Positions 8,348 to 51,700 of a stretch of DNA of 64,000 bases are shown piece after piece. The notes beneath the pieces are model-generated. The model searched no databases, was not told the origin of the DNA, and saw only the letters and a program-made list of their open reading frames with translations. Both the position numbers and the translations under genes were made by a program. Source of the DNA: Oceanobacillus zhaokaii (GTDB taxonomy: Bacteria; Bacillota; Bacilli; Bacillales; Amphibacillaceae); contig NZ_CP024848.1 of assembly GCF_003352005.1 (NCBI RefSeq), positions 505,001-569,000 of the forward strand. Direction: 5' to 3'. Positions within the stretch are counted from its first letter, which is position 1, and each line of letters opens with the position of its first letter.

Positions 8348-10090
8348 CTAAAGTCTAAACAGATTTATTTCATAGTTCATTTGTTCTGCTAGATCTGCTA
8401 ACTCGTCCGCATTGTGTGAAACTTCTTCCATAGAACTAGCAGATTGTTGTGTGGAAGCAGCAACCTGTTCCACTCCAGCAGCTGATTCTTCTGAGACAGA
8501 AGCGATATCTTCTATAACATTATTCATATTACTGCTTGTAGTTGTGATTTCATTTAGGTTGTTTGATATGGCATCAATTTTTGTAGCCATATCGGAAACC
8601 GCAGCATTAATGGATGCAAAGCTTTTTCCTGTTGCTTCAATTTGGGTTGTTCCTTCTTGAACCTCGTGATAGCCAGCACTTAATGTGTTGACAACTTGAA
8701 CAGTTTCCGTTTGAATTGCTGTAACAATTGTTTTAATTCCTTCTACAGAAGAGGCTACTTGATCCGCGAGCTTTCTCACTTCGTCAGCAACAACAGCAAA
8801 GCCTTTACCATGCTCTCCAGCCCTCGCCGCCTCAATCGCCGCATTCAATGATAGTAAATTGGTTTGGTCTGCAATATCACGAATGACAGTCACCAGCTTC
8901 GAAATCTCTGCAGATTGTTTATCTAAATTCTTAACCTTTTCAACAGCGTCGGAAACGATGGTATCGATTTGTTTCATCTGTGAAACCGAGTTATTCATAA
9001 GCGTGGTGCCATTACTTGTTAAGGATAAAATATCGAATGAACTTGCTGCAATTTCATTGCCGCTTTGTTCTGATAATAATACACGCTTTACAAAATCAGA
9101 CATATTTTCTGCTAAATCCGATGCACCATTTGCCTGTGTTTCTGCACCAGCAGATAGCTCCTCCATTGTCCTAGCAATCTGAATGTTTCCTTCTTTTACT
9201 TCTTTTGCAGATTGTGTTAAATTCTCACTTCTCGTTGAAACGGAATTTGCTACATTTGCTATGTTAGTTAAAATGTGTTTAAGGCTGTCCTTCATTTGAT
9301 TAACAGTGGCTGCTAATTGGCCAATCTCATCTTTACCGTCATAGTCAATTGAGTCAACTTGCAGATTCCCATCTGCTACTTCTTTCGTTAGTTTCACTAA
9401 GTTTGATAGTCCGACTGCAATCTTTCGACTAACAAATAGCATTAGTATTGTTCCAATTACCACTACGGTAAAAATAGCAATAAACAAAATGAGCATGCTG
9501 CTATTGATATTATTTGTAGATGTTTTAACTAGTTCTTCCTGTTCCTTCTTAACATCGTTTGTTAAATGTTCTACTTGTTCAAGAATTTCATTTCGATATT
9601 TTGATGAATAGCTTCGTAGTGAGGTAGCATATACAACTAAATCCTCTTCCACTGCAGGAACCATTTTATTCAGAAAGGTATCCTTTATCCCATTAATATT
9701 ATCTTGAATTGTATTAAATGTTTCTTTCTGTTCCTTTGTCGTTAATGCTGGTGTCAAATCCGCGATTATAGTATTGATTTGTTCTGTGTATGCATTATAT
9801 GTATCAATATACTGTTCTTCCTGTGTTAATAAATATTCTGCAATTTGAAAATCTTGCAATTGGATGAGTGAGGACAGCTGTGTCATTTCATTTACCCATT
9901 CATTTTGTTTTTCCATTGCCTTAATGTTATCTTCTGTTTTATTTAATTGCAGGAAGACGATAAAGCTAGCGATAATAATTAGTCCTACTGTCGTGAAAAA
10001 TGCGAATAAATACTTTTGACCAATTCTAATATCTTTCCATGTGAATCTGCTTTTCTTTTTATCTTTTTGTTTTCTCTGTTTGTTTTTCAT
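8348..10090 (-). CDS. methyl-accepting chemotaxis protein
   Basis: A 580-residue chemoreceptor. It has a basic cytoplasmic N-terminus, a first membrane helix (about 28-48), an extracellular helical sensor of about 150 residues (4HB_MCP-like), a second membrane helix (about 200-222), a HAMP domain (about 223-275) and a long signalling coil. The hairpin tip that binds CheA/CheW is intact: [20 protein letters not shown], then [14 protein letters not shown]. The ligand is unknown. The gene is single, with an AGGGGGG-like ribosome site before its ATG at 10090. It diverges from the ABC-F leader. Confidence 0.95.
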
Positions 10091-10222: not shown

Positions 10223-10252
10223 TTGACATCATAATTATATTTATCATAATAT
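10223..10252 (+). promoter_or_regulatory. sigma-A-type promoter of the ABC-F leader
   Basis: A consensus TTGACA (10223-10228) is followed after 16-18 bp by CATAAT/TAATAT (10245-10252). Transcription from here would begin a few bases before the leader peptide ribosome site, giving a leader of about 260 nt ahead of the ABC-F gene. Confidence 0.65.
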
Positions 10253-10282
10253 TAAGATGTATATTTAAAGGAGGTGGGTAAG

Positions 10283-10405
10283 ATGGAATTTGCTGGTAGT
10301 GGTGTAGTGAAACTTAGAGAGTACCTATGTATTCGCTATGCTATTTTTGCTGCATTTTTGTTCAACGGGATTAGTCTGTCCTTTTTCAGAACAATAGAGC
10401 AGTAA
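10283..10405 (+). CDS. putative 40-aa leader peptide of the ABC-F gene
   Basis: A 40-codon frame starts at ATG 10283 behind a very strong AAAGGAGGTGGG site (10267-10278) and ends at 10405, 37 bases before an intrinsic terminator and 117 bases before the ABC-F start. Near its start it reads VVKLREYLC, which contains Lys-Leu-Arg, a match to the (R/K)x(R/K) motif at which macrolide-bound ribosomes are known to stall. The rest is hydrophobic. The strong ribosome site and its place before an attenuator suggest a sensor peptide for ribosome-targeting drugs. The inducer is inferred, and a small membrane protein is the alternative. Confidence 0.6.
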   Translation: MEFAGSGVVKLREYLCIRYAIFAAFLFNGISLSFFRTIEQ

Positions 10406-10441
10406 AAATACCAGTGAGAGACATCTGCCTGCGGTCGGAAT

Positions 10442-10477
10442 AAAGACGTTAGGAGGTTCACTTCCTGACGTCTTTTT
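10442..10477 (+). terminator. leader terminator (attenuator) upstream of the ABC-F gene
   Basis: AAAGACGTTAGGAG pairs with CTTCCTGACGTCTTT (one G-U pair and one bulge) and is followed by TTTTT. It lies inside the 5' leader, after the leader peptide and before the ABC-F ribosome site, the arrangement of transcription-attenuated resistance genes. GAGAGACA (10415-10422) can pair with TGTCTCTT (10494-10501), which could form an outer or competing helix. Confidence 0.75.
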
Positions 10478-10521
10478 GATATGCATAAAACAGTGTCTCT
10501 TCTATATCGGAGGAAGAGAAA

Positions 10522-12156
10522 ATGATCATTTGCAGTTTAAATAATGTTACACAAACGTACGGAGCAAATACGATATTCAGTGAAATGACATGTGAAATTA
10601 AACAAGGAAACCGGATTGGATTAATTGGCAGAAATGGCGAAGGAAAGACGACATTATTGCATTTAATCGCCAGAAAAACAGAGCCTGCATTGGGAGTAAT
10701 TACTTGGAAAAAGGGGCTAACGATTGGGTTATTGGAACAGAGTCCTGAAATTGATGGAGAAACTAAATCTGTGACACTTCTCTATAATGTCTTTTCTGAT
10801 TTAAATAAATTACGAGCTAAGATGATGGAATTAGAGGAAAAAATGAGTACTGAAACAAATCCAGATCGATTAACAAGCTATATAGAAAAATATGGAGATT
10901 TACAAGAGAAATTCCAAGAAGATGGCGGCTATGAAGTGGATGCACAGGTGAGGAGAATTATGGCTGGTCTTCAGATTGAGGATTTAGCGAATAAGGAATG
11001 GAGAACCTTGAGCGGTGGTGAAAGAACAAAGATCGGATTGGCTAGGCTGCTGCTTTCAGCACCGGATTTATTACTACTTGATGAACCAACAAATCATTTG
11101 GATTTTCTGGCAATTGAATGGCTGACTGAATTTATCAAGCAGTACGCTGGAACCGTCATTATCGTATCCCATGATCGATATTTTTTAGATGAAACAGTTA
11201 CGTCTATTCTGGAAATCGATCAGGGAGAATTAATTACCTATCAGACAAATTACTCAAACTATGTAATTGAGAGGGAAACGCGTTTGCTTCAGGAATTTCA
11301 GCATTACCAGGATCAGCAAAAAAAAATAAAGAAAATGAAAGAAACAATCAAGCGATTGAAGGAATGGGCAAATCAGGCCAATCCACCAAATGACGGGCTG
11401 CATCGGCGGGCAAAAAGCATGGAAAAAGCACTTGAGAGAATCGAAGTGCTTAAGCGGCCAATATTAGAACAGAAAAAGATTAGTCTCGACTTTCAGATTA
11501 ACAATCGAAGTGGTAGGGATGTTGTCATATTCGAAAATGTTCGCAAGCAATTTGCAGATAAAAAGCTATTCGATTCGGTGAATATGCATGTTCGTTTCCA
11601 GGAAAGGATTGCGATTATTGGAGGAAATGGAACAGGGAAATCAAGTCTATTAAACATTATCTTGGGAAAAGAATACGCGGATAGTGGAGCGGTTAAAATA
11701 GGCAGCAATTTATCGGTTGGTTTTCTTTCCCAGCATGTATTGGAGCTTAATAGCGATCAAACAATTTTAGAGGAGTTCCGTGACCATGTGCATGTTGCAG
11801 AAGGGGAAGCTAGGGCAATATTAGCAAAATTCCTATTCTATGGTAAAACTGTGTTTCAAAAAGTGAAAGATCTAAGTGGTGGAGAGAAAATGCGCCTAAG
11901 ATTAGCAGAACTTGTTCATCAAAATCATAATCTCTTAATCTTAGATGAACCAACAAACCATTTGGATATTGAGTCGAAGGAAGTATTAGAGGAGGCACTT
12001 AATTTATTTGATGGAACGATCATCGCTGTTTCACACGACAGGTATTTCTTGGATCGACTTTTTCCAATCACATATTTACTTGCAAATCAGACACTAACTA
12101 GATATGAAGGGAACTTCACATTTGCAAGAAATAAATGGAAGGAGTCGCAATTTTAA
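10522..12156 (+). CDS. ABC-F family ATPase, ribosomal-protection type
   Basis: A soluble protein of 544 residues with two ATPase domains and no membrane segment, as in ABC-F translation factors and antibiotic resistance proteins. Domain 1 has Walker A GRNGEGKTT (36-44), LSGGERTK and LLLLDEPTNHLD. Domain 2 has GGNGTGKSS (about 367), LSGGEKMRLRLAE and LLILDEPTNHLD. Between them lies a highly charged arm/linker (about 255-325) that would reach the ribosomal P/E site. Both Walker B glutamates are present. The length is close to VmlR of B. subtilis, but it lacks a long C-terminal extension. The upstream leader peptide and terminator favour a drug-inducible resistance role over a housekeeping one; the drug class is unknown. 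Confidence 0.88.
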   Translation: MIICSLNNVTQTYGANTIFSEMTCEIKQGNRIGLIGRNGEGKTTLLHLIARKTEPALGVITWKKGLTIGLLEQSPEIDGETKSVTLLYNVFSDLNKLRAKMMELEEKMSTETNPDRLTSYIEKYGDLQEKFQEDGGYEVDAQVRRIMAGLQIEDLANKEWRTLSGGERTKIGLARLLLSAPDLLLLDEPTNHLDFLAIEWLTEFIKQYAGTVIIVSHDRYFLDETVTSILEIDQGELITYQTNYSNYVIERETRLLQEFQHYQDQQKKIKKMKETIKRLKEWANQANPPNDGLHRRAKSMEKALERIEVLKRPILEQKKISLDFQINNRSGRDVVIFENVRKQFADKKLFDSVNMHVRFQERIAIIGGNGTGKSSLLNIILGKEYADSGAVKIGSNLSVGFLSQHVLELNSDQTILEEFRDHVHVAEGEARAILAKFLFYGKTVFQKVKDLSGGEKMRLRLAELVHQNHNLLILDEPTNHLDIESKEVLEEALNLFDGTIIAVSHDRYFLDRLFPITYLLANQTLTRYEGNFTFARNKWKESQF

Positions 12157-51348: not shown

Positions 51349-51474
51349 GAATTTTTCTTATTCTTTTTTTAAAACAAGGTAAGCCATGTTGAGCTTCAAG
51401 TCAATTATTTAGTAGGTCTTGACTTTATAAAAGCATACATATATATTAAGAATGATATAGGAAACATTGATGGG

Positions 51475-51700
51475 GATTAGTATGATTTATTTGTCTTTCT
51501 AAGAGAGGAAATGGTTGCTGGGAATTTCCAAAGACATAAGTTAGAACCTGCTCCTGAGTTCGCCATCGAAAAGGCAAAATTGCTATAAGATGTGCGCGGT
51601 TTATGACCGTTATCAAGTGAAGTGTGCAAGGGGTTCATCCTTTGCAAACAAGGGTGGTACCACCAGGCCTCGGTCCCTTTTTTGGACGCGGGGATTTTTT
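51475..51700 (+). ncRNA. T-box riboswitch of proS
   Basis: The conserved T-box sequence AGGGTGGTACCACC (51651-51664) is followed by a terminator helix (about 51667-51700) ending in TTTTTT. Upstream is a stem I region with AGTA (51478-51481), a probable specifier loop TTAGAACCTGCTCC and a stem III. A CCT proline codon at 51547-51549 is the likely specifier. The variable T in TGGT would pair with discriminator A of tRNA-Pro. Uncharged tRNA-Pro should promote antitermination into proS. Confidence 0.9.

Follow-up and report, generated by a model that had tools for sequence, protein, structure and literature searches.

Architecture of the locus upstream of the ABC-F gene

What controls the ABC-F gene in the window (the whole 64,000-nucleotide stretch of Oceanobacillus zhaokaii DNA analyzed here)? 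The gene is preceded by a short ORF and an intrinsic terminator, and the preliminary description of this locus proposed that the two form a leader peptide attenuator that responds to drugs. The linkage of the leader family to ABC-F genes, a covarying helix that masks the leader start, and terminators downstream of 77 of 82 leaders together support the attenuator part of this proposal. Therefore, the ABC-F gene, which is chromosomal, is very probably under ribosome-mediated attenuation by a leader arranged like that of Bacillus subtilis vmlR, with a 40-codon peptide of the RAxF-45 family.

The order of the parts given earlier (promoter, strong Shine-Dalgarno sequence [SD], 40-codon leader, terminator, and ABC-F SD) was re-read and confirmed (Table 1). 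The leader, the terminator, and the supporting helices were found to be kept in orthologs, so the attenuator proposed before the ABC-F gene stands. The outer helix, originally placed at 10415-10422 with 10494-10501, also exists, but its 5' strand had to be moved by one base. Features beyond those originally listed are a helix masking the leader SD and start, a hairpin masking the ABC-F SD, and a conserved element within the leader ORF.

Table 1. Features of the locus (positions in the window; all paired strands are given 5' strand first)
Feature	Position	Strand	Basis and remarks
Divergent ORF, methyl-accepting chemotaxis type	8348-10090	-	By reading
Sigma-A-type promoter, -35 TTGACA	10223-10228	+	Read directly, consensus scan
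Promoter -10, option CATAAT	10245-10250	+	Spacer 16; 11-of-12 consensus match
Promoter -10, option TAATAT	10247-10252	+	Spacer 18; aligns with orthologs
Leader SD AAGGAGGTGGG	10268-10278	+	Read directly
Leader-masking helix	10277-10279 with 10427-10429; 10281-10285 with 10422-10426	+	Fold, partner swap
Leader ORF MEFAGSGVVKLREYLCIRYAIFAAFLFNGISLSFFRTIEQ, 40 codons + TAA, NCBIfam RAxF-45 (NF041642)	10283-10405	+	Profile match
Conserved peptide motif EYLCIRYAIF, codons 13-22, candidate arrest site	10319-10348	+	88-leader alignment
Outer stem of element hairpin	10358-10363 with 10389-10394	+	Partner shuffles, fold
Nucleotide-level element GGGATTAGTCTGTCCTTTTTC, small hairpin + T-run, proposed RNA polymerase pause site	10367-10387	+	Conservation
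Outer helix	10416-10423 with 10494-10501	+	Centroid fold, alignment, partner shuffles
Candidate antiterminator	10425-10436 with 10445-10455	+	MFE -9.2 kcal/mol in window
Intrinsic terminator	10442-10456 with 10461-10475, T-run 10473-10477	+	Folding; 15 bp, 4-nt loop
Hairpin masking ABC-F SD	10496-10502 with 10513-10519	+	Folding, alignment
ABC-F SD GGAGG	10509-10513	+	Read directly
ABC-F gene, 544 aa, NF000355; ATG at 10522	10522-12156	+	Profile match

Of the two candidate -10 boxes, TAATAT lines up with TAATAT and TAAGAT of the two nearest orthologs, and TTGAC is present in all 14 upstream regions compared; promoter-like matches in the consensus scan are in total no more numerous than in shuffles. 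The folding energy of the leader RNA is 6.85 standard deviations below that of dinucleotide shuffles. No terminator was reported by a consensus scan, probably because the stem takes up the Us; folding reveals the 15-bp stem. At the gathering score, no Rfam family was detected at the locus. Elsewhere in the window, a T-box leader (RF00230, 126.4 bits) was identified at 51458-51681 on the forward strand.

The ABC-F protein matches NF000355 (ribosomal protection-like ABC-F) with 472.7 bits, against a cut-off of 380, and its nearest relative, from O. arenosus, is 93% identical. Among solved structures, the best match is VmlR (290 bits), followed by EttA (281 bits) and VmlR2 (273 bits). Orthology to VmlR and VmlR2 (ARE2) was rejected because their scores are similar to that of EttA. 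Judged by these scores, the protein is not closely related to one with a known drug spectrum. It may confer resistance, or it could be a housekeeping translation factor, as the description of NF000355 says just "ribosomal protection-like."

The leader peptide belongs to the RAxF-45 family

The translated leader matches the NCBIfam family RAxF-45 with 47.4 bits (E = 1.1e-12; curated cut-off, 27) and is thus a member. RAxF-45 matches at E values up to 0.001 are present in 88 of 147 related genomes, and 84 of the 147 carry matches over the cut-off, whereas there were none in the 14 control genomes. The gene that follows the 88 over-cut-off places in the 147 genomes encodes an ABC-F protein in 83 cases, an MFS protein in 3 (one identified by a Pfam scan, and two that on reading are nearly identical to it), and a peptidase S51 in 1; the remaining place is followed by an ABC-F remnant. 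Conversely, a RAxF-45 match is located within 1,000 nt upstream of 40 of the 45 best ABC-F places (41 to 100% identity, leaving out the more distant paralogs in the list), at distances of 112 to 445 nt. Among the five places that have no such match, four are at most 49% identical and one is at a contig end. A literature text search for "RAxF-45" returned no paper carrying that name; this previously unexplained family would gain a role as the leader peptides of ABC-F attenuators. One leader (L117) stands before a seemingly truncated ABC-F start and is a decayed copy; the same genome has an intact leader (L051).

Conservation along the peptide was read from an alignment of 88 of the 101 RAxF-45 places, from which 12 of the 13 places below the cut-off and the place before the ABC-F remnant were omitted. 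By this alignment, codons 13 to 22 are the most conserved part of the peptide and a candidate arrest site. A Leu is kept in 78 leaders through six codons, an Ala in 86, and a Phe in 77; the residue before the conserved Leu is F or Y in 72 of the 88, and the residue after it is aromatic in 66. The retention of Leu through six codons indicates peptide-level selection on the leader. In the same block, Phe is always encoded by TTT and Arg nearly always by CGT, and therefore an RNA constraint acts there too.

The preliminary description singled out a different part of the peptide, Lys-Leu-Arg, as a match to the (R/K)x(R/K) macrolide arrest motif (here, +x+). Such motifs are enriched in the family: 58 of the 88 leaders, which are related to each other, carry +x+ upstream of the element described below, compared with ∼18 expected and a maximum of 27 in 200 within-leader residue shuffles. 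K-L-R itself, however, is a feature of the subclade to which the leader of the window belongs and not the most conserved part. K-x-(K/R) occupies codons 10 to 12 in 18 of 26 close leaders (from 30 loci examined, 4 of them without an identified leader) and the same columns in 16 of the 88 leaders of the wider family, and K-L-R was accordingly rejected as a defining family motif. The assumption that +x+ is absent outside this subclade also proved wrong. R-A-K is found inside the RAxF block in 39 of the 88 leaders, never together with K-x-(K/R); 30 of the 88 have no +x+ at all before the element. Thus, the enrichment speaks mildly for the arrest motif proposed earlier, and +x+ arrest on the leader is possible, the motif being common but not universal.

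Leader-masking helix, terminator, and outer helix

The pairing of the leader SD and start with the RNA that follows the leader was compared with that of swapped partners in 82 leaders (the 88 minus 6 that have no element match). The own partners pair at -18.46 kcal/mol versus -15.50 kcal/mol for swapped ones, and 0 of 2,000 swapped-partner shuffles reached the own energy. When 28 intervals were scanned, only those at +40, +50, and +60 from the element stood out (z = -12.7, -13.5, and -5.9, respectively). Partner swapping does not remove the relatedness of the leaders; nevertheless, the other 25 intervals, which serve as controls, fall between z = -2.3 and +3.9. These comparisons strongly support a leader-masking helix that has been kept with strong compensatory change.

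A terminator of -15 kcal/mol or better is predicted downstream of 77 of the 82 leaders, compared with 7 of 246 first-order Markov controls. A search of 600 nt at each of the 30 close ABC-F orthologs (67 to 100% identity) recovered a block following the leader in 27 of them. Across these 27 orthologs, only 22 of 2,000 shuffles matched the own pairing of the outer helix (AAGAGACA:TGTCTCTT), which lends it modest support. The outer helix and the hairpin over the ABC-F SD compete with each other.

The candidate antiterminator cannot coexist with either the leader-masking helix or the terminator. Its pairs looked compensatory by eye (CCTG:CAGG and CCAC:GTGG) but failed the partner-swap test and the interval scan, and the helix was kept as a candidate. 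Covariation of the candidate was not found in the 27 orthologs, where 1,859 of 2,000 shuffles were as good, and none of 45 upstream intervals paired against the terminator arm in the wider family fell below z = -2.6. Pairing between the block and the arm reaches three pairs in 25 of 27 own combinations versus 487 of 810 shuffled blocks, a moderate excess. The antiterminator is therefore treated as an unproven step of the model.

A nucleotide-level element inside the leader ORF

The 3' part of the leader ORF contains a stretch of the form GGG-9nt-YCC-TTTTTT that is conserved at the nucleotide level. In 94 sequences, in which the block was picked by its amino acids (7 of the 101 places have no alignable block), the third codon positions at GGG, xGT, xTG, and YCC are constant in 92, 94, 94, and 92 cases, respectively, and first positions vary. 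The fixed third positions therefore point to selection on the nucleic acid.

A census of the reading frame covered 206 distinct places, of which 91 have no RAxF-kind leader. Of the 115 classed leaders, at least four of which are not RAxF ORFs, 98 carry the block in the usual frame. Among RAxF leaders, two (L306 and L211) have the block in a second frame and three (L115, L333, and L336) in the third; in L109 and in seven distinct loci of one genus, the leader has already stopped before the block begins. Hence, NGIRxSFF at the leader C terminus was rejected as a peptide motif, its third positions being fixed and the block persisting out of frame and beyond the stop codon. In genus g115 (L228 to L233 and L235 to L238), a 25-codon RAxF leader ends just before the element, and the element is kept outside the frame; the next gene encodes an ABC-F protein 46.6 to 48.9% identical to that of the window in nine comparable loci.

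The element can fold into a small hairpin that adjoins the T-run. For its outer stem, 5 of 9 pairs exceed partner shuffles in 81 RAxF leaders at z = 3.9 to 5.2, one does so at 2.3, and three do not; the outer stem of the window's own element is offset by one base. The loop bases GU.UG are fixed. The element of the window ends in TTTTTC, one base off TTNTTT, and T6 is the majority form in the relatives.

This arrangement resembles that of NusG-dependent pauses, in which TTNTTT at -11 to -6 is combined with an RNA hairpin 11 to 12 nt upstream of the 3' end; the review that gives this layout lists functional pauses of this type in the B. subtilis ribD, tlrB, and vmlR leaders and the roles of NusG residues N81 and T82 of the pro-pausing type (PMC12288461). 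The element would probably be such a NusG-type RNA polymerase pause site. The NusG of the genome itself reads RNTPGVTGF, an N-T pair of the pro-pausing type, which we take to correspond to N81 and T82 (B. subtilis numbering). The hairpin ending at T6 and this N-T pair fit the NusG layout, although the window has TTTTTC instead; a pause at the element is thus a prediction that the layout favors. A plain pause hairpin gives no explanation for the fixed loop GU.UG.

These results also bear on whether RAxF-45 might be a functional small protein that merely adjoins ABC-F genes, with the terminator ending its own transcript and the ABC-F gene served by read-through. The family is listed in NCBIfam as a protein subfamily and shows the peptide-level conservation described above. 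Yet its C-terminal third is under nucleotide-level constraint, and the sequence of that third changes with a frame shift or an early stop of the ORF; in addition, RNA downstream of the leader pairs and covaries with its SD, and 83 of 88 copies stand before an ABC-F gene. An independent small protein is thus highly improbable, and RAxF-45 is treated below as the leader peptide of an attenuator.

Occurrence of the element beyond RAxF-45 leaders

With one mismatch allowed, the pattern was found in 105 of the 147 related genomes, whereas its reversal matched 10 times, in 9 of these genomes. A mere pattern artifact was rejected on these counts, yet some of the matches are chance or other hairpins. 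Outside the order, the pattern is sparse: in a phylum-wide sample of 299 genomes, it occurred in 22 and its reversal in 9. Some genomes among the 22 contain several copies each that seem to be unrelated repeats. One viral contig also matches. In a literature text search for the sequence of the element, the text of the papers listed first matched an unrelated string, "raxf," and contained no description of the element.

At least 119 stretches with the element are present in the named genomes, and 86 among the matches listed have a complete next ORF (called mechanically). Of these 86, 48 match the ABC-F model NF000355 at E values up to 1e-15. Among the matches listed, the remaining next ORFs include seven Erm-type rRNA dimethylases, seven RlmA-type proteins, seven MFS_1 and two MATE proteins, and one chloramphenicol acetyltransferase, as well as SecA (2), RibD, PurE, and ribosomal protein S4. 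Many leaders among the matches listed are not of the RAxF kind: a short R-x-R-or-similar ORF, for example, MTHSMRLRFPTLNQ, stops 41 to 45 nt before the element in 46 of 114 named loci, and the element is therefore noncoding there. A terminator of -12 kcal/mol or better is predicted within ∼300 nt downstream in 93 of the 112 loci that have enough sequence, again among the matches listed, versus 21 of 224 Markov controls and 13 of 106 upstream stretches.

The element is also found in leaders that have an aptamer. In three ribD leaders and one purE leader (L289, L311, L205, and L221), an Rfam FMN or purine aptamer is located upstream of the element, and the folds contain a separate terminator further downstream, so the element stands between sensor and terminator. 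By contrast, behind the glycine-riboswitch aptamers of L206, L209, and L210, the T-run closes a longer hairpin that is apparently the riboswitch terminator, so the pattern alone does not prove membership. Leader ORFs of a different kind that contain the element were observed before a chloramphenicol acetyltransferase gene in Megasphaera (L304), and before MATE genes in Propionispora (L319) and at L390. In Lederbergia (L309), the element is located ∼380 nt upstream of the gene for ribosomal protein S4 (rpsD).

Instead of a pause site, GGG-N9-YCC-T6 could be an intrinsic terminator of low strength or a site that a protein, an sRNA, or a ligand binds in a sequence-specific manner. The hairpin and T-run are terminator-like, at -2.9 to -8.7 kcal/mol for four variants lacking the outer stem, and in the three glycine-riboswitch leaders the pattern coincides with an apparent terminator; the fixed loop bases GU.UG would be unnecessary for a plain hairpin. 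Nevertheless, a separate, stronger terminator is located downstream in most named loci (93 of 112 among the matches listed), and a terminator inside the leader ORF would fire on ribosome stalling, the wrong sign for induction. The stem and T-run also match the NusG pause layout (PMC12288461). This alternative appears possible, albeit doubtful.

We lean, with some reservation, toward the view that GGG-N9-YCC-TTTTTT is a portable, frame-independent pause cassette of Bacillales, placed between a sensor, either a drug-arrestable leader ORF of one of several unrelated kinds or a riboswitch aptamer, and a terminator. If so, a single signal would synchronize the polymerase with the ribosome or ligand across ABC-F, Erm, RlmA, MFS, MATE, and CAT resistance genes. 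The idea that polymerase pauses within or behind leaders that sense drugs has precedents; what would be new is one short nucleic acid signal shared by otherwise unrelated drug-responsive leaders. In Firmicutes, polymerase and ribosome are not tightly coupled. If the element is a pause site, their synchrony could be tested by placing one sequence in a range of contexts, and genomes could be searched with the signal for inducible resistance genes.

Predicted mechanism of attenuation

From the parts described above, the following course of events can be proposed. RNA polymerase would start near 10259 and pause at the element at 10367-10387 inside the leader ORF, allowing a ribosome to load; the leader SD would still be free at this time because the strand that masks it lies downstream. 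Without drug, the ribosome would complete the leader and leave, 10422-10429 would fold back on the leader SD and start, and the terminator at 10442-10475 would form, yielding only a leader RNA of ∼220 nt. A ribosome stalled at the leader start, at K-L-R, or at EYLCIRYAIF would instead keep the leader-masking helix open. The segment 10425-10436 would then be free to pair with the 5' arm of the terminator (10445-10455), resulting in read-through. In the read-through transcript, 10416-10423 would pair with 10494-10501, such that 10496-10502 could not mask the ABC-F SD.

Any stall on the leader would trigger such a switch, and the signal could in principle be amino acid shortage or general translation stress rather than an antibiotic. 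The leader contains six Phe among its 40 codons, although the sole adjacent Phe pair is encoded by the element. This reading is unlikely, given that the same element precedes genes of drug resistance or efflux types and that +x+ motifs are enriched in the leaders; induction by a drug that stalls the leader ribosome would be the preferred one.

Relation to known systems and to rliI

The principle of such regulation is already known from vmlR, tlrB, msrD, and hflXr, as described in the publications cited below. The closest parallel is the vmlR leader, which, according to PMC9226507, shares with this locus a uORF located in a hairpin whose base masks it, a pause signal (proposed for the window), a terminator, and a hairpin over the ABC-F SD together with a helix that relieves the masking; the leader-masking helix is the counterpart of the anti-antiterminator stem described there. 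In the same account, expression was altered by mutating the vmlR uORF, the hairpin around it, the terminator, or the pause motif, and a mutant of the SD-masking hairpin was near wild type. The differences are in the uORF, which is 3 codons (MIN) in vmlR (PMC9226507) and here a 40-codon RAxF-45 ORF with the pause-like element inside it, and in the gene, the ABC-F of the window not being the vmlR ortholog.

The B. subtilis tlrB (yxjB) leader, as reported in PMC6851288, likewise combines a leader peptide, a pause before the gene, a terminator, and SD masking. It differs in its 9-codon leader ending in RYR, in preceding an rRNA methyltransferase gene, and in a pause that was shown experimentally, whereas the pause here is proposed. 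With msrDL/msrD, as presented in PMC10314930, the locus shares an ABC-F gene, a leader peptide, a terminator, and a TTNTTT-like motif inside the leader ORF; the msrDL leader, however, has 6 codons (MYLIFM), with macrolide arrest at the stop codon, against the 40 codons found here. Finally, uORFC-6-1 before hflX in Bacillales, which contains an R-L-R uORF (PMC8632094), and rli80/hflXr (PMC6310831) share a uORF of drug-sensing type and a ribosome rescue gene; going by these two reports, they differ from the window in leader, gene, and RNA fold. As far as literature searches show, the novelty lies in the role assigned to RAxF-45, in the connection with rliI, and in the nucleotide element that the leaders have in common.

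The link to rliI (RF01487) emerged from a full-length match of this Rfam family to window positions 10262-10477 (E = 3.1e-8; 36.5 bits, below the gathering score of 45). The rliI consensus encodes MLLSNARTSTAKFLYIVRAIFSGIAVTLAKSAQKTA, which in turn matches RAxF_45 with E = 9.3e-5 and 22.1 bits, below the cut-off of 27. Among 200 genomes sampled across the class, 16 match rliI, none above the gathering score, compared with 0 of 14 control genomes; of the 16 matching places, 12 have a RAxF-like ORF with an SD, and in 14 the next gene is an ABC-F gene. In catalogs, rliI is listed as an sRNA that acts in trans on lmo1035-lmo1036. According to a review, Term-seq points to rliI as a putative conditional terminator for lmo2760, which encodes the ATP-binding part of an ABC transporter (PMC8079631). 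The full-length match, the RAxF-like ORFs, the ABC-F neighbors, and the Term-seq report thus suggest that rliI is most readily understood as related to this kind of attenuator, although not a member by the curated rule. The T-run of the element is missing from the Listeria rliI.

Elsewhere in this genome, beyond the window, an element-like copy with 2 mismatches (L134; G000:C1:411709) follows a 15-codon R-L-R leader, MASIRLRLQSLKYVN, and precedes the gene for a GTPase of the HflX type (Pfam GTP-bdg_N, GTP-bdg_M, and MMR_HSR1). This leader resembles the published uORFC-6-1 and hflXr leaders.
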